Source: an uncultured Bacteroidota bacterium (GTDB lineage: Bacteria; Bacteroidota; Bacteroidia; Bacteroidales; VadinHA17). From it: a DNA stretch of 43,476 bases. Of the stretch, positions 17,207-23,659 are shown one piece after another. Numbering within the stretch: the stretch's first letter is position 1; every line of letters starts with the position of its first letter. Location of the stretch: NCBI GenBank assembly GCA_937864815.1, contig CALMJY010000302.1, positions 1-43,476 of the forward strand, read 5' to 3'. The position numbers and the translations under genes are program-made. The notes under the pieces were generated by a model that searched no databases, had not been told where the DNA came from, and worked only from the letters and a program-made list of their open reading frames with translations.

Positions 17207-20200
17207 TTATTTATACTCATCCCAGCTCATGATCTTCAGGTCCTCAATCTTCAGTTTGCAATATGCCAGAATGAAAGCGCTTGCCAGACGTGCATTTGTG
17301 ATCAGGGGAACATTGAAATCAACGGCACTGCGCCTGATTGAATAATCGTTCTGTAATTCTGAAGCTGTCAGATCTTTAGGGATATTTACCACAAGGTCAA
17401 CCTCTCTGGATTTTATCAGCTCAATGGTGTTGGGTGATTCCTTTTCATCGGGCCAGTATGCCACATGGGCTTCGATGCCTGCATTCTGAAGGAATTGCTG
17501 GGTACCTCTCGTGGCATACAGCTTATGTCCTTTTTCCACAAGAGCCCTGGCGCTGTTGAGAAGCTCAACTTTTGAACGGGCAGGACCGGTAGAAAGCAGG
17601 ATACTCTTTTTTGGGATCCTGTAACCAACAGAGAACATTGCTTTCAGAATTGCTTCGTAAAATCCTTCGCCTATACAACCTACCTCCCCGGTTGAAGACA
17701 TATCCACACCAAGAACCGGGTCAGCTTTGGCAAGACGCGAGAAGCTGAACTGAGGTGCTTTGACACCCACATAGTCGAGTTCAAATACTGTCTTCCGTGG
17801 TTTCTCTGCCGGCAGACCGAGCATCACTTTGGTTGCCAGTTCTATAAGGTTGGTTTTCAGTACCTTTGAGACAAATGGCATACTGCGGCTGGCACGGAGG
17901 TTACATTCAATTACCTTGATATCATTGTCCTTGGCAAGGAACTGTATATTGAACGGACCTGTAATGTTGAGTTCCCTGGCGATCTGCCGTGAGATCCGTT
18001 TAATTCTTCTTGCAGTTTCGAAGTAAATTTTCTGGGCCGGAAATACCATTGTGGCATCACCGGAATGTACGCCTGCAAACTCAACATGCTCACTAATTGC
18101 ATATGCCAGCATATCCCCGTCGCGGGCTACTGCATCAATTTCAATTTCCTTTGCATTCTCGATGAATTCAGATACCACAACAGGATACTGCTTTGAAACT
18201 TTAGCCGCAAGATTGAGATAATGTGTAAGTTCATTCTTATTAGAGACAACGTTCATGGCAGCTCCTGAAAGAACATATGAAGGTCTGATAAGGACAGGGA
18301 AACCTATACGATCGACAAATTCATTGATGTCATCAATAGATGAGAGTTCTTTCCATCTGGGCTGATCAACGTGCAGATTGTCAAGCATCGCGGAGAACTT
18401 ATGTCTGTTCTCTGCCCTGTCGATTGATACAGGAGATGTCCCCATGACCGGGACATTTTCCTTGAAAAGTCTCATTGCCAGGTTATTCGGGATCTGGCCA
18501 CCCACTGAAACTATAACACCTCCGGGTTGTTCAATATCTATTATATCAAGAACCCTTTCGAAAGTAAGTTCATCAAAATAGAGCCTGTCGCAAATATCAT
18601 AGTCGGTACTTACAGTTTCCGGATTATAGTTGATCATTACTGACCTTAGTCCTTCCTTTTTGATTGTTTCAATGGCATTTACAGAGCACCAGTCAAACTC
18701 AACACTTGATCCGATCCTGTATGCACCTGAACCGAGAACGATAACAGATTTTTTATCATTTTCGCATTTGATGTCATGTTCAGTGCCGCTGTAAGTAAGA
18801 TAAAGATAATTGGTTACAGCAGGATATTCAGCAGCAAGGGTATCTATCTGTTTAATATAAGGAACTATGCCAATTGATTTTCTGTAGCTTCTGAGTTTCA
18901 TAAGGTCATCATTGATCTGACCTGGTCCTGATTTCAGCACATGTCTTGTTATCTGAAAGTCGCTGAAGCCGTTTATTTTTGAATGAGCCAGGAACTCGTG
19001 AGGTATAGACTCGAAGGTTTTGTACTTACAGAGTTCATCTTTGATATGAATTATATTTCTGAGCTTGAACAGGAACCATTTGTCAATTTTTGTGAGCTCA
19101 TATATCCTGTCAACCGACATCCCTTTTTCTAGGGCTTCAGCTATGGAAAATATTCTCATATCTGTAGGCTCAGATAATTCTCTTTCAATATCTTCAAAGC
19201 TCAGGTCGCGGTTCCCTGTAAATCCGTGCATTCCCTGGCCGATCATTCTGAGACCTTTCTGAATGGCTTCCTCGAAGGTTCTTCCGATTGCCATTACTTC
19301 ACCTACACTCTTCATGCTACTTCCAATGAGGTGTGATACACCTTCGAATTTATTGAGGTCCCAGCGGGGAATTTTGCAGACAATATAATCAAGTGCAGGT
19401 TCAAAGCAGGCGGTGGTATTTCTGGTAACTGAATTTTTGAGTTCATGGAGACCGTATCCCATACCAAGCTTGGCAGCAATAAAAGCAAGGGGATAACCTG
19501 TAGCCTTTGAGGCAAGTGCACTTGAACGTGAAAGGCGGGCATTAACTTCAATCACCCTGTAATCTTCTGATTCCGGTGACAGGGCATACTGAACATTGCA
19601 TTCGCCTACAATACCAATATGTCTGATTATCTTGATGGCGAGCTCTCTCAGCTTATGATATTCACTGTTTGTGAGGGTCTGTGATGGAGCGACAACAATA
19701 CTTTCTCCGGTATGAATACCCAGTGGGTCGAAATTCTCCATATTACAGACCGTGATACAGTTGTCAAAACGATCACGGACAACCTCATATTCAACCTCTT
19801 TCCATCCCTTAAGCGATTCTTCAACAAGTATCTGGTTTGAGTATGAAAAAGCTTTTAAAGCCAGAGTTCTCAGTTCTTCAGTGTTTGATGCGAAACCGCT
19901 TCCCTGTCCGCCGAGTGTATACGCAGCACGTATAATAACCGGAAAACCTAGTTTTTCAGCAGCTTTCAGTGCATCTTCCACGCCTGTTACGGCTATGCTG
20001 CTGGGAGTTTTTACATCGATCTCATCAAGTTTCCTGACAAAAAGCTCCCGGTCTTCAGTATCCATTATTGCCCTTACAGGAGTTCCCAGCACTTTTACAT
20101 TGTATTTCTCATAGATCCCGGCTTTATATAGCTCAGTACCGCAGTTCAGAGCTGTCTGTCCGCCGAATGAGAGAAGAATTCCGTCAGGATTTTCCTTTTT

Positions 20201-20428
20201 TATTACCTCTTCAACATAATATGGAGTAACAGGGAGGAAATAAATTTTATCGGCAAGTCCTTCGGATGTCTGAACTGTAGCGATATTAGGGTTAATGAGA
20301 ATGGTTTTTATGCCCTCTTCCTTCAGAGCCTTCAAAGCCTGTGAGCCTGAGTAATCAAATTCCCCTGCTTCCCCTATTTTGAGAGCTCCGGAACCAAGGA
20401 TAATAACCTTTTTTATTTCGTCTTTCAT
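17207..20428 (-). CDS. carB: Carbamoyl-phosphate synthase large subunit
   Basis: Synthesises carbamoyl phosphate from bicarbonate, ATP and ammonia delivered by CarA, feeding arginine and pyrimidine synthesis. The protein is 1073 residues from the ATG at 20428 (MKDEIKKVIILGSGALKIGEAGEFDYSG), the same length as the E. coli subunit; an upstream open stretch to 20581 overlaps the argR promoter and is rejected. Two homologous ATP-grasp halves are seen (GSGALKIGEAGEFDYSG and its repeat GSGAYRIGSSVEFDWC). The C-terminal MGS-like allosteric domain (about 935-1073) includes KGHKLYATRGTQQF. It is divergent from argR, with ARG-box-like sites between. CarA is encoded separately, past argH. Confidence 0.97.
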   Translation of the reverse strand: MKDEIKKVIILGSGALKIGEAGEFDYSGSQALKALKEEGIKTILINPNIATVQTSEGLADKIYFLPVTPYYVEEVIKKENPDGILLSFGGQTALNCGTELYKAGIYEKYNVKVLGTPVRAIMDTEDRELFVRKLDEIDVKTPSSIAVTGVEDALKAAEKLGFPVIIRAAYTLGGQGSGFASNTEELRTLALKAFSYSNQILVEESLKGWKEVEYEVVRDRFDNCITVCNMENFDPLGIHTGESIVVAPSQTLTNSEYHKLRELAIKIIRHIGIVGECNVQYALSPESEDYRVIEVNARLSRSSALASKATGYPLAFIAAKLGMGYGLHELKNSVTRNTTACFEPALDYIVCKIPRWDLNKFEGVSHLIGSSMKSVGEVMAIGRTFEEAIQKGLRMIGQGMHGFTGNRDLSFEDIERELSEPTDMRIFSIAEALEKGMSVDRIYELTKIDKWFLFKLRNIIHIKDELCKYKTFESIPHEFLAHSKINGFSDFQITRHVLKSGPGQINDDLMKLRSYRKSIGIVPYIKQIDTLAAEYPAVTNYLYLTYSGTEHDIKCENDKKSVIVLGSGAYRIGSSVEFDWCSVNAIETIKKEGLRSVMINYNPETVSTDYDICDRLYFDELTFERVLDIIDIEQPGGVIVSVGGQIPNNLAMRLFKENVPVMGTSPVSIDRAENRHKFSAMLDNLHVDQPRWKELSSIDDINEFVDRIGFPVLIRPSYVLSGAAMNVVSNKNELTHYLNLAAKVSKQYPVVVSEFIENAKEIEIDAVARDGDMLAYAISEHVEFAGVHSGDATMVFPAQKIYFETARRIKRISRQIARELNITGPFNIQFLAKDNDIKVIECNLRASRSMPFVSKVLKTNLIELATKVMLGLPAEKPRKTVFELDYVGVKAPQFSFSRLAKADPVLGVDMSSTGEVGCIGEGFYEAILKAMFSVGYRIPKKSILLSTGPARSKVELLNSARALVEKGHKLYATRGTQQFLQNAGIEAHVAYWPDEKESPNTIELIKSREVDLVVNIPKDLTASELQNDYSIRRSAVDFNVPLITNARLASAFILAYCKLKIEDLKIMSWDEYK

Positions 20429-20445
20429 TGTCAGGAATTGTGTGC

Positions 20446-20453
20446 CAAAAATA
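20446..20453 (-). promoter_or_regulatory. Candidate -7 element of carB
   Basis: Minus-strand TATTTTTG matches TAnnTTTG, 17 bases before the carB start codon. No matching -33 TTTG is seen. The tandem ARG boxes begin about 36 bases upstream of it. Confidence 0.5.
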
Positions 20454-20488
20454 GTACATTTTTTTGATTTGAGTTTCCATATGTAAAA

Positions 20489-20527
20489 AATGAATATATT
20501 TGCAAAAAAATTGCATAAATATGCAAA
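20489..20527. promoter_or_regulatory. Tandem ARG-box operator in the carB-argR divergent region
   Basis: Box 1 core TGAATATATTTGCA (20491-20504) and box 2 core TGCATAAATATGCA (20512-20525) both fit the 14-base ARG core pattern TGNAT-wwww-(A/T)TNCA, known from E. coli and Bacillus ArgR/AhrC sites. As 18-base boxes they are 3 bases apart, with centres 21 bases (two helical turns) apart, the spacing used by hexameric ArgR in E. coli. Box 1 covers the argR -7 element, and box 2 covers the argR start codon at 20521. Binding itself is inferred. Confidence 0.75.
20495..20502 (+). promoter_or_regulatory. Candidate -7 element of argR
   Basis: TATATTTG matches TAnnTTTG and lies inside ARG box 1, 18 bases before the argR ATG. 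A TTTG at 20468-20471 is 23 bases upstream, slightly longer than the usual spacer. Overlap with the operator predicts autorepression. Confidence 0.55.
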
Positions 20528-21000
20528 AACCAAAAAGGCTTCTTGCAATTGAGAAGATAATAAGGGAATCGAGGATAACAACCCAGGAGGAGTTGCTTAA
20601 AAAGCTCAGGGGCAAAGGAATCACCTGTACACAGGCTACCCTTTCACGCAATTTAAGACAGCTTGGAGTAGGAAGGATACCTGATGGTTCCGGAGGATAC
20701 AGGTACTCGCTTCCGGATAATACCAGGCATTCTTCTGATTCCCCCTTGACATTAAACATTGTTCCTGTTATACAGGATATTATCGAGGCTAAGGGGATGC
20801 TGGTTATAAGGACATTACCCGGAAATGCCAATAATACTGCACTTTACATTGACAATGCAGGCAGATATGAAATAGCGGGTACTATTGCCGGTGACGACAC
20901 CATACTGCTTATTCCAAGAGATGGCATTACCTCACATCAACTCCATTCCTGCCTTGAGATTGTATTGCCCGGTTTGCATAATCAGCTTAGGAAGAAATAG
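20521..21000 (+). CDS. argR: Arginine repressor ArgR
   Basis: Hexameric arginine-sensing regulator of the ArgR/AhrC family. The protein is 159 residues from the ATG at 20521 (MQKPKRLLAIEKI); an in-frame ATG at 20500 lies within the operator and is not preferred. The N-terminal winged helix includes recognition helix TQATLSRNL (37-45), matching the S-R pair of the family. The C-terminal oligomerisation and arginine-binding domain carries GTIAGDDT (120-127), whose Asp pair binds arginine in relatives. It is followed by argG (68 bases) and argH. Overlap of its promoter and start codon with ARG boxes predicts feedback control. Confidence 0.95.
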   Translation: MQKPKRLLAIEKIIRESRITTQEELLKKLRGKGITCTQATLSRNLRQLGVGRIPDGSGGYRYSLPDNTRHSSDSPLTLNIVPVIQDIIEAKGMLVIRTLPGNANNTALYIDNAGRYEIAGTIAGDDTILLIPRDGITSHQLHSCLEIVLPGLHNQLRKK

Positions 21001-21068
21001 ATTGTTTCTGTAAAAAATGGATATTAAAATTTGCGATTTATAATTTGTAAAAGTCAATTAACAAAAAG

Positions 21069-22315: not shown

Positions 22316-23659
22316 ATGAAACTTTGGGAAAAGGGAATAAACCCGGAACCTGCCATCATTGAATTTACGGCAGGAAAAGACAGAAAAACAGATCTTGCGC
22401 TGACCAAGTGGGATATAGTTGGTTCCATGGCACATGTAATAATGTTACAGGATGTCGGGCTAATATCAGAAGAAGAAAAAAATGGAATGCTGAAAGCCCT
22501 TCATTCTCTCTTTGAATGGGATGAGGAGGGCAGCCTGGTCATCGAAAAGGATGTTGAGGATATACATTCCCAGATAGAGAAGGAGATGTCATCCATACTC
22601 GGAACAACCGGGAAAAAGATCCATACAGGAAGATCAAGGAATGACCAGGTGCTTGTTGATATTCGTCTCTATACAAGGGAAGAAATCGATAAACTATCTG
22701 TTCATATCAGGAACCTTTTTATCAGGCTTCAGGATTTGAGTGAACAGTATAAAGAGGAACTGCTGCCGGGTTATACTCATATGCAGCCTGCAATGGTTTC
22801 ATCTTTCGGACTCTGGTTCGGCGCCTGGGCTGAATGCCTTGCCGACGATATTGTTATGCTTGCAGGAGCAAGGGCGATAAACAACCAGAATCCCCTGGGT
22901 ACAGCTGCAGGTTATGGTACAACACTTCCGATAAACAGGAAACTGACATCAGAACTTCTCGAATTTGACGATTTGCTTTATAATTCAGCATATGCCAGTC
23001 TGAGCAGGGGCAAAATTGAGATGGCTGTTGCTTCTGCACTTGCTTCGGTTGCACAGACTTTGTCGCGTTTTTCAATGGATATATGCATTTATATGAGCTC
23101 CGAGTACAGATTCATCGATTTTCCTGATGAGTATGTAACAGGCTCGAGCATTATGCCGCAAAAAAGAAATCCTGATGTATTTGAACTTATCAGGGCAAGG
23201 TGCAATGTGATCCAGACCCTTCCCAACCAGATAGCAATTCTGACAAGCAATCTTCAGTCGGGTTACAACCGGGATCTTCAGTTATTGAAGATGCTGGTTT
23301 TTGATGCGTTCGGTGAGTTAAGGGAATGTATAGAAATAATGCTGCTGATGCTGAATAATATTAAGGTGAAGAAGAATATAACAGAAAATTCTCTGTATAA
23401 CACAATTTTCAGTACCGAGGAAGTAAACAGGCTTGTAAAGCATGGAATTCCGTTCAGAGATGCATATAAGGCTGTTTCGGAGATGGTTAAGAATTCTTCA
23501 TTTTCAAAGACGACACTTGCCGATTATGTTCATGAGGGGAGTATAGGTAATCTTTGCAATAAAGAGATTGCTGATCTTTTTGAGGAGCGTATGAAGCCAT
23601 TCATAAATACTTCTGCTGCAGAATTTGCAGAGAAGATGATGAAACATGTTACGGCATGA
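22316..23659 (+). CDS. argH: Argininosuccinate lyase
   Basis: Splits argininosuccinate into arginine and fumarate, the final step of the pathway. The protein is 447 residues, fumarase/aspartase superfamily. THMQPA (His155 catalytic region) and the mobile signature loop GSSIMPQKRNPD (276-287, catalytic Ser) are intact. It starts 14 bases after argG, so it is part of argR-argG-argH. The gene ends at the repeat element separating it from the convergent carA. Confidence 0.97.
   Translation: MKLWEKGINPEPAIIEFTAGKDRKTDLALTKWDIVGSMAHVIMLQDVGLISEEEKNGMLKALHSLFEWDEEGSLVIEKDVEDIHSQIEKEMSSILGTTGKKIHTGRSRNDQVLVDIRLYTREEIDKLSVHIRNLFIRLQDLSEQYKEELLPGYTHMQPAMVSSFGLWFGAWAECLADDIVMLAGARAINNQNPLGTAAGYGTTLPINRKLTSELLEFDDLLYNSAYASLSRGKIEMAVASALASVAQTLSRFSMDICIYMSSEYRFIDFPDEYVTGSSIMPQKRNPDVFELIRARCNVIQTLPNQIAILTSNLQSGYNRDLQLLKMLVFDAFGELRECIEIMLLMLNNIKVKKNITENSLYNTIFSTEEVNRLVKHGIPFRDAYKAVSEMVKNSSFSKTTLADYVHEGSIGNLCNKEIADLFEERMKPFINTSAAEFAEKMMKHVTA

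Follow-up and report, generated by a model that had tools for sequence, protein, structure and literature searches.

The window, i.e., the whole 43,476-nucleotide stretch of DNA that was analyzed, is one complete contig of a 4.66-Mb genome in 348 contigs. The genes surrounding the site studied here are as follows:

17207..20428, minus strand: carB, carbamoyl-phosphate synthase large subunit, divergent from argR
20521..21000, plus strand: argR, ArgR/AhrC-type arginine repressor, 159 aa
21069..22301, plus strand: argG, argininosuccinate synthase, with predicted co-transcription with argR
22316..23659, plus strand: argH, argininosuccinate lyase
23799..~24860 (start approximate), minus strand: carA, carbamoyl-phosphate synthase small subunit, convergent with argH

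With this gene order, carB and carA flank argR-argG-argH and are both encoded on the other strand. The argR product exceeded the cut-offs for both PF01316 (68.7 bits, cut-off 27) and PF02863 (62.5 bits, cut-off 25), which correspond to the winged-helix N-terminal and the arginine-binding C-terminal domains, respectively, and it scored 130.4 bits against TIGR01529, just below the cut-off of 130.45. Its closest solved chains were 1b4a (arginine repressor) and 1f9n (arginine repressor/activator), with both of which its GTIAGDDTI segment aligns; this segment fits the GTxxGDDT stretch, whose paired Asp we take to be arginine-binding. The protein is thus assigned as an ArgR/AhrC-type repressor, which would be expected to form an arginine-dependent hexamer and bind DNA. 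Relatives matched through this ArgR included the MAGs Bacteroidetes bacterium RA.bin116 (85% identity) and Bacteroidales bacterium UBA1800 (68%).

Between carB and argR, and extending into the argR start region, lie the following elements:

20446..20453, minus strand: predicted carB -7 element TATTTTTG, 35 bp from box 1
20489..20506, plus strand: ARG box 1, 18-mer, with its core TGAATATATTTGCA at 20491-20504
20495..20502, plus strand: argR -7 element TATATTTG (form TAnnTTTG), inside box 1
20510..20527, plus strand: ARG box 2, 18-mer, with its core TGCATAAATATGCA at 20512-20525
20521..20523, plus strand: argR start codon ATG, inside box 2, which also holds the A at -3 and -6

The two boxes are separated by a 3-bp gap, with centres 21 bp apart. 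The exact coordinates, E. coli-like spacing, and overlap with the promoter and start codon that the original prediction had described were all confirmed on the window sequence. Scored with a matrix built from relatives (own genome left out), the box pair reached 46.5, compared to -3.2 for the best non-overlapping pair elsewhere in the window and a maximum of 12.5 across 60 Markov sequences of window length. The degenerate pair pattern occurred with 0 mismatches at a single place in the 4.66-Mb genome, and the next matches had 2 mismatches. The pair at argR is not a product of chance and is by far the best paired site of the genome.

We then compared the site among relatives, using the argR ATG to align a genus set of 35 distinct sequences, 34 from genomes of the genus and one, L003, from a named MAG putatively belonging to it. 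The original prediction had proposed aligning the carB-argR gap in relatives to see whether the palindromes are conserved, and both boxes were indeed present in 35/35 sequences. Mean information was 1.83 bits for the box 1 core and 1.87 bits for the box 2 core; the 3-bp spacer reached 1.06, and the flanking sequence 0.69 (26 bases upstream) and 1.29 (the next 24 coding bases). Core position 3 was A, C, or T but never G in both boxes; in the available portion of PMC4865122, the E. coli and Streptomyces ARG consensus sequences also differ at this position. Searched genome-wide with at most one mismatch, the pair pattern was found at argR in 34 of 36 genus genomes, compared to 0 for a reversed control pattern; the two genomes without it were G018, in which a contig end truncates the argR match, and G030, in which argR itself was not detected. 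The remaining genus matches were two stray sites (G015:C20 and G017:C29) and a second copy of the G002 site, located at positions 39-73 of another contig.

Conservation was also evaluated across the order, in which PF01316 was present in 103 of 247 genomes. (A second sample, taken across the phylum, had it in 73 of 198 genomes; besides the genome of the window, one match, G111 with E 1.1e-5, belonged to the same class and the rest to the same phylum.) The order set comprised 103 loci outside the genus from 102 genomes (101 plus G046, with G309 represented twice), leaving out L134, L145, L154, L155, and L162 (repeats or genus members) and two fragmentary extra argR copies (G397), and it was scanned with the genus-trained matrix. 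A pair was counted when its centres were 21 bp apart, its score was at least 15, and it lay at most 250 bases upstream. Such pairs were found upstream of ArgR in 56/103 loci, compared to 0/103 in a control 2 kb downstream and 1/103 in the reversed upstream sequence. When centre spacings from 14 to 33 bp were scanned over a 280-base stretch (not the 2-kb stretch of the downstream control), 56 loci had a pair at 21 bp, compared to 7, 5, and 7 loci at 20, 22, and 23 bp, respectively. A secondary peak of 16 loci, unexplained, was observed at 31 bp, about one helical turn beyond 21. An arg or car gene adjoins argR in 52 of the 56 pair-bearing loci, though these loci share descent, so the counts are not independent. 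Among the 47/103 loci under the cut, some had a pair at another spacing (20, 22, or 23 bp), several had nothing, and the sequence of L044 was too short; since 31 of these 47 also have a downstream arg gene, the pair is not universal, even among argR-arg operons.

The operator candidate shares its bases with the argR promoter. Primary-sigma promoters of Bacteroidota carry TAnnTTTG as their -7 element and TTTG as their -33 element, about 17-20 bp upstream. In the order set, TAnnTTTG occupied the equivalent place in box 1 in 52/56 pair-bearing loci. The genus consensus at the -33 region was TTTG at 20473-20476 (26, 30, 26, and 23 of 35 sequences at the four positions), and the window itself has a weak GTTT there. 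The TAnnTTTG motif appears in the available portion of PMC6847099, where the -33 element is termed much less evident. Among the 53 pair-bearing loci whose nearest in-frame ATG is outside box 2, position 14 of box 1, which is part of the -7 element, was G in 51, while the equivalent position of box 2 was A, T, or G in 30, 10, and 13 loci, respectively, and this fixed versus free position indicates that the promoter constraint is carried by one box only.

Box 2 overlaps the translation start in the genus set, where the ATG lay within the box in 35/35 sequences, with A at -3 in 34/35 and at -6 in 35/35; A at these two positions favours initiation in Flavobacterium, according to the available text of PMC6847099. 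The overlap is mostly limited to this genus: taking the nearest in-frame ATG before the ArgR domain as the start codon (a rule, not an annotation), the ATG followed box 2 in 53 of the 56 order loci with a pair and fell inside it in 3. The right half of box 2 was still ATNCA in 47 of the 53 loci with the ATG outside, so the overlap with the start codon looks incidental, probably reflecting an inferred leader of perhaps 12-15 bases. The suggestion in the original prediction that box 2 could also block translation initiation was not supported, as the 53 pair-bearing order loci with the ATG elsewhere keep the box, and we rejected a translational operator over the start codon on these grounds.

We also explored which genes the predicted argR promoter may serve. 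Among the 33 of 35 genus-set loci with a gap between argR and argG (7-240 bases), the gap contained no TAnnTTTG and no box scoring at least 12. In the window, no terminator-like site was found in 21001-21068, and a single promoter-like match of the E. coli type was seen, ending at 20982; such matches showed no excess (6 compared to 9.1 in shuffles). Lacking a -7 element, box, or terminator in this gap, argG and argH are most likely transcribed from the argR promoter, and these gaps support the earlier proposal that autoregulation reads through to both genes. In many other Bacteroidales, a protein of about 200 aa lies between argR and argG (e.g., L042 3488-4084, L044 529-1122, and L051 3516-4145), with matches in 28/56 pair-bearing and 28/47 other order loci; it had no Pfam match at 1e-5 (L043, L044, and L051) and no NCBIfam match at 1e-30 (L042). 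Separately, carA was found downstream of argR in the same direction in 12 of the 56 pair-bearing order loci (e.g., L194, L195, L202, and L230), so argR-carA(B) operons under this type of operator seem to exist.

Based on these data, the pair is very probably an autoregulatory operator, on which arginine-loaded ArgR bound to both boxes would exclude RNA polymerase and shut off argR-argG-argH, with low arginine releasing the block. With the argR transcription start predicted near 20507, ArgR with arginine would cover about -18 to +20, i.e., both the -7 element and the start region. Polymerase would thereby be kept off and the three genes would be silenced as one operon, and a fall in arginine would release ArgR and turn the operon on.

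Beyond argR, the pattern is nearly absent across the genus genomes, such that the paired-box regulon seems to consist of a single strong element. We considered and rejected the idea that the genome of the window has a large paired-box ArgR regulon: among the weaker matches inspected, those on C322 and C165 are inside ORFs and the intergenic one on C311 scores 0.3. An imperfect intergenic pair was also observed at G000:C341:28925-28963 (L099 2926-2964), with 3 mismatches and a score of 16.1 (above the cut of 15 and far below 46.5), between an ORF without a Pfam match and an M28 peptidase gene. The sole intergenic single-box match in this genome besides argR was a perfect ARG box ATGCATAATTATGCAT at G000:C164:3103-3118 (L092 2292-2307), about 92-94 bases before the predicted start of proB (glutamate 5-kinase). 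Across 30 scanned proB loci, the box scored at least 20 in 3, 15.5 in 2, and at most 6.3 in 25 (L268 from a fragment), and it may represent a second ArgR target that is young, weaker, and lineage-specific.

The arginine genes elsewhere bear on whether ornithine synthesis may have been lost. For argC, nothing exceeded the cut-off in the 36 genus genomes, and 13 of 14 control genomes were over it. For argB, the genome of the window had 7 AA-kinase matches, of which proB, carbamate kinase, and a piece of pyrH could be named, and those on C256, C47, C206, and C80 were nameless. Carbamate kinase and ornithine carbamoyltransferase genes are adjacent in this genome (L097 7410-8378 and 8551-9552; G000:C159), and no box was found at them (best pair -10.9, best single box 4.7). 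We infer that the argR operon makes arginine from citrulline, and the arginine economy of this genome is perhaps based on ornithine or citrulline.

We next evaluated the position of the operator relative to the divergent carB promoter. In the genus set, the carB-argR gap was 90-95 bp in the 32 loci with divergent carB, and 30 of them have a CAAAnnTA (minus-strand -7 element) ending 33-40 bp short of box 1 (L009 was left out of this count because of its short upstream sequence). Two genus loci, L038 and L039, have no divergent carB in view and no carB -7 element, and keep both boxes. In the order set, divergent car was defined as a minus-strand tblastn match in the upstream stretch at most 369 bases from the ArgR domain (a small intervening gene is possible), which gave 19 pair-bearing loci (16 carB and 3 carA); L186 and L204, with divergent carA and a pair score below 15, are outside these 19. 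A strict -7 element was located 35-38 bp from box 1 in 13/19 car loci, under 8 family labels, compared to 0/37 loci without divergent car, and the count rose to 16/19 compared to 0/37 if T is also allowed as the first letter (Fisher p 1.4e-8 and 2.3e-11, respectively, ignoring kinship among loci and with the 35-38 bp range chosen after inspecting the data). The car loci off this pattern were L180 (same family, 45 bp), L210 (20 bp), and L197 (no element), and one of the 37 non-car loci has an element at 39 bp, so the contrast is imperfect under the wider 33-40 range. The carB start codon could be located in 12 of the 16 order loci, and in the 7 of them with a strict site, its distance from box 1 ranges from 51 to 165 bp, with the -7 element staying at 36-38 bp; the start shifts and the -7 element is fixed, which suggests that the distance between promoter and operator is held and the leader is not.

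In the window, 41 bp separate the argR and carB -7 elements, leaving hardly any room for two polymerases at once, and polymerase on either promoter should exclude polymerase on the other. The carB transcription start is predicted near 20440 on the minus strand. ArgR occupancy should then change how often carB is transcribed, either by removing the competitor or by crowding the upstream side of carB. The effect may thus run in either direction, and the geometry lends indirect backing to the influence on carB that the original prediction had put forward. A broader possibility is that Bacteroidales possess a two-way element, in which an ArgR operator fused to argR is phase-locked 35-38 bp from the -7 element of divergent car, arginine switches polymerase between the argR operon and car, and the paired-box regulon of the genus has shrunk to this single element; we propose this tentatively and consider it rather more apt to be wrong than right.

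Several other explanations of these patterns need to be weighed. The conserved letters could simply represent promoter and translation signals (the -7 element, the A-rich stretch at the translation start, and the ATG), with the palindromes incidental; TATATTTG in box 1 and the ATG with the favoured A-3/A-6 in box 2 would be conserved anyway, but little or no variation is seen in the TG/CA flanks or, its third position aside, in the left half of box 2, ATNCA persists in 47/53 loci where no start codon demands it, and the preference for 21-bp spacing is sharp, all of which makes this explanation extremely unlikely. It is also very unlikely that the site serves mainly for ArgR control of carB with argR as a by-product: although the 35-38 bp between box 1 and the -7 element of a divergent car gene would suit such a role, the boxes are kept in L038 and L039 and in the 37 pair-bearing order loci without divergent car, and the argR -7 element is within box 1 in 52/56.

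The car-argR geometry may reflect nothing more than back-to-back promoters sharing a -33 region, or common descent, with no effect of ArgR on car, and we give this account an even chance of being right. With 41-44 bp from one -7 element to the other, the two -33 regions would coincide, the loci have common ancestry, and carbamoyl phosphate is needed for pyrimidines at any arginine level, whereas loci from 8 family labels beyond the genus share the strict site despite a shifting carB start codon, and overlapping polymerase footprints would by themselves couple car to ArgR.

Taken together, the site is well supported by the sequence comparisons as an ArgR autoregulatory operator of the ordinary paired kind, deeply conserved and fused to its promoter, and the same 39 bases contain operator, promoter, and start codon. 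These results provide a precise ArgR motif that applies to roughly half of the ArgR loci sampled across the order and from which arginine control may be predicted in species without genetics. The near-constant distance to divergent car promoters further offers a direct test of how arginine and pyrimidine synthesis divide carbamoyl-phosphate synthase between them, in contrast to the tandem-promoter solution of E. coli. ArgR sites in Bacteroidota had been called little described in the original prediction, and among the matches listed from a collection without most subscription papers, no paper on them was found. ArgR, argG, and arginine are absent from the part of the text of PMC12596196 (Bacteroides thetaiotaomicron) that was available. 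The RegPrecise Bacteroidaceae collection comprises 35 TF regulogs, with ArgR not named in the available part of its description (PMC3840689), and an earlier ArgR-site prediction in related bacteria is possible among these regulons.

Compared to known systems, the site resembles E. coli carAB P2, artP, and artJ, as described in the available portions of PMC6640053 and PMC6245113, in that both consist of two 18-bp imperfect palindromes with a 3-bp gap overlapping a promoter; at E. coli carAB P2, ArgR and RNA polymerase are mutually exclusive (PMC6245113 and PMC6640053, same portions). Unlike the E. coli operators, the site in the window has a Bacteroidota -7 element in box 1, a start codon in box 2, and a promoter back to back with that of carB. 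Regulon size differs as well, with one clear paired operator in the genome of the window, whereas proteobacterial genomes have on average 19.7 genes regulated by ArgR, according to PMC5343134, which places argR itself in the gammaproteobacterial core. Box 2 of the window also fits the core of the Streptomyces ARG consensus AWTGCATRWWYATGCAWT (PMC4865122, available portion), although the promoter type and gene order of the Streptomyces and Bacillus ARG-box systems differ from those in the window.
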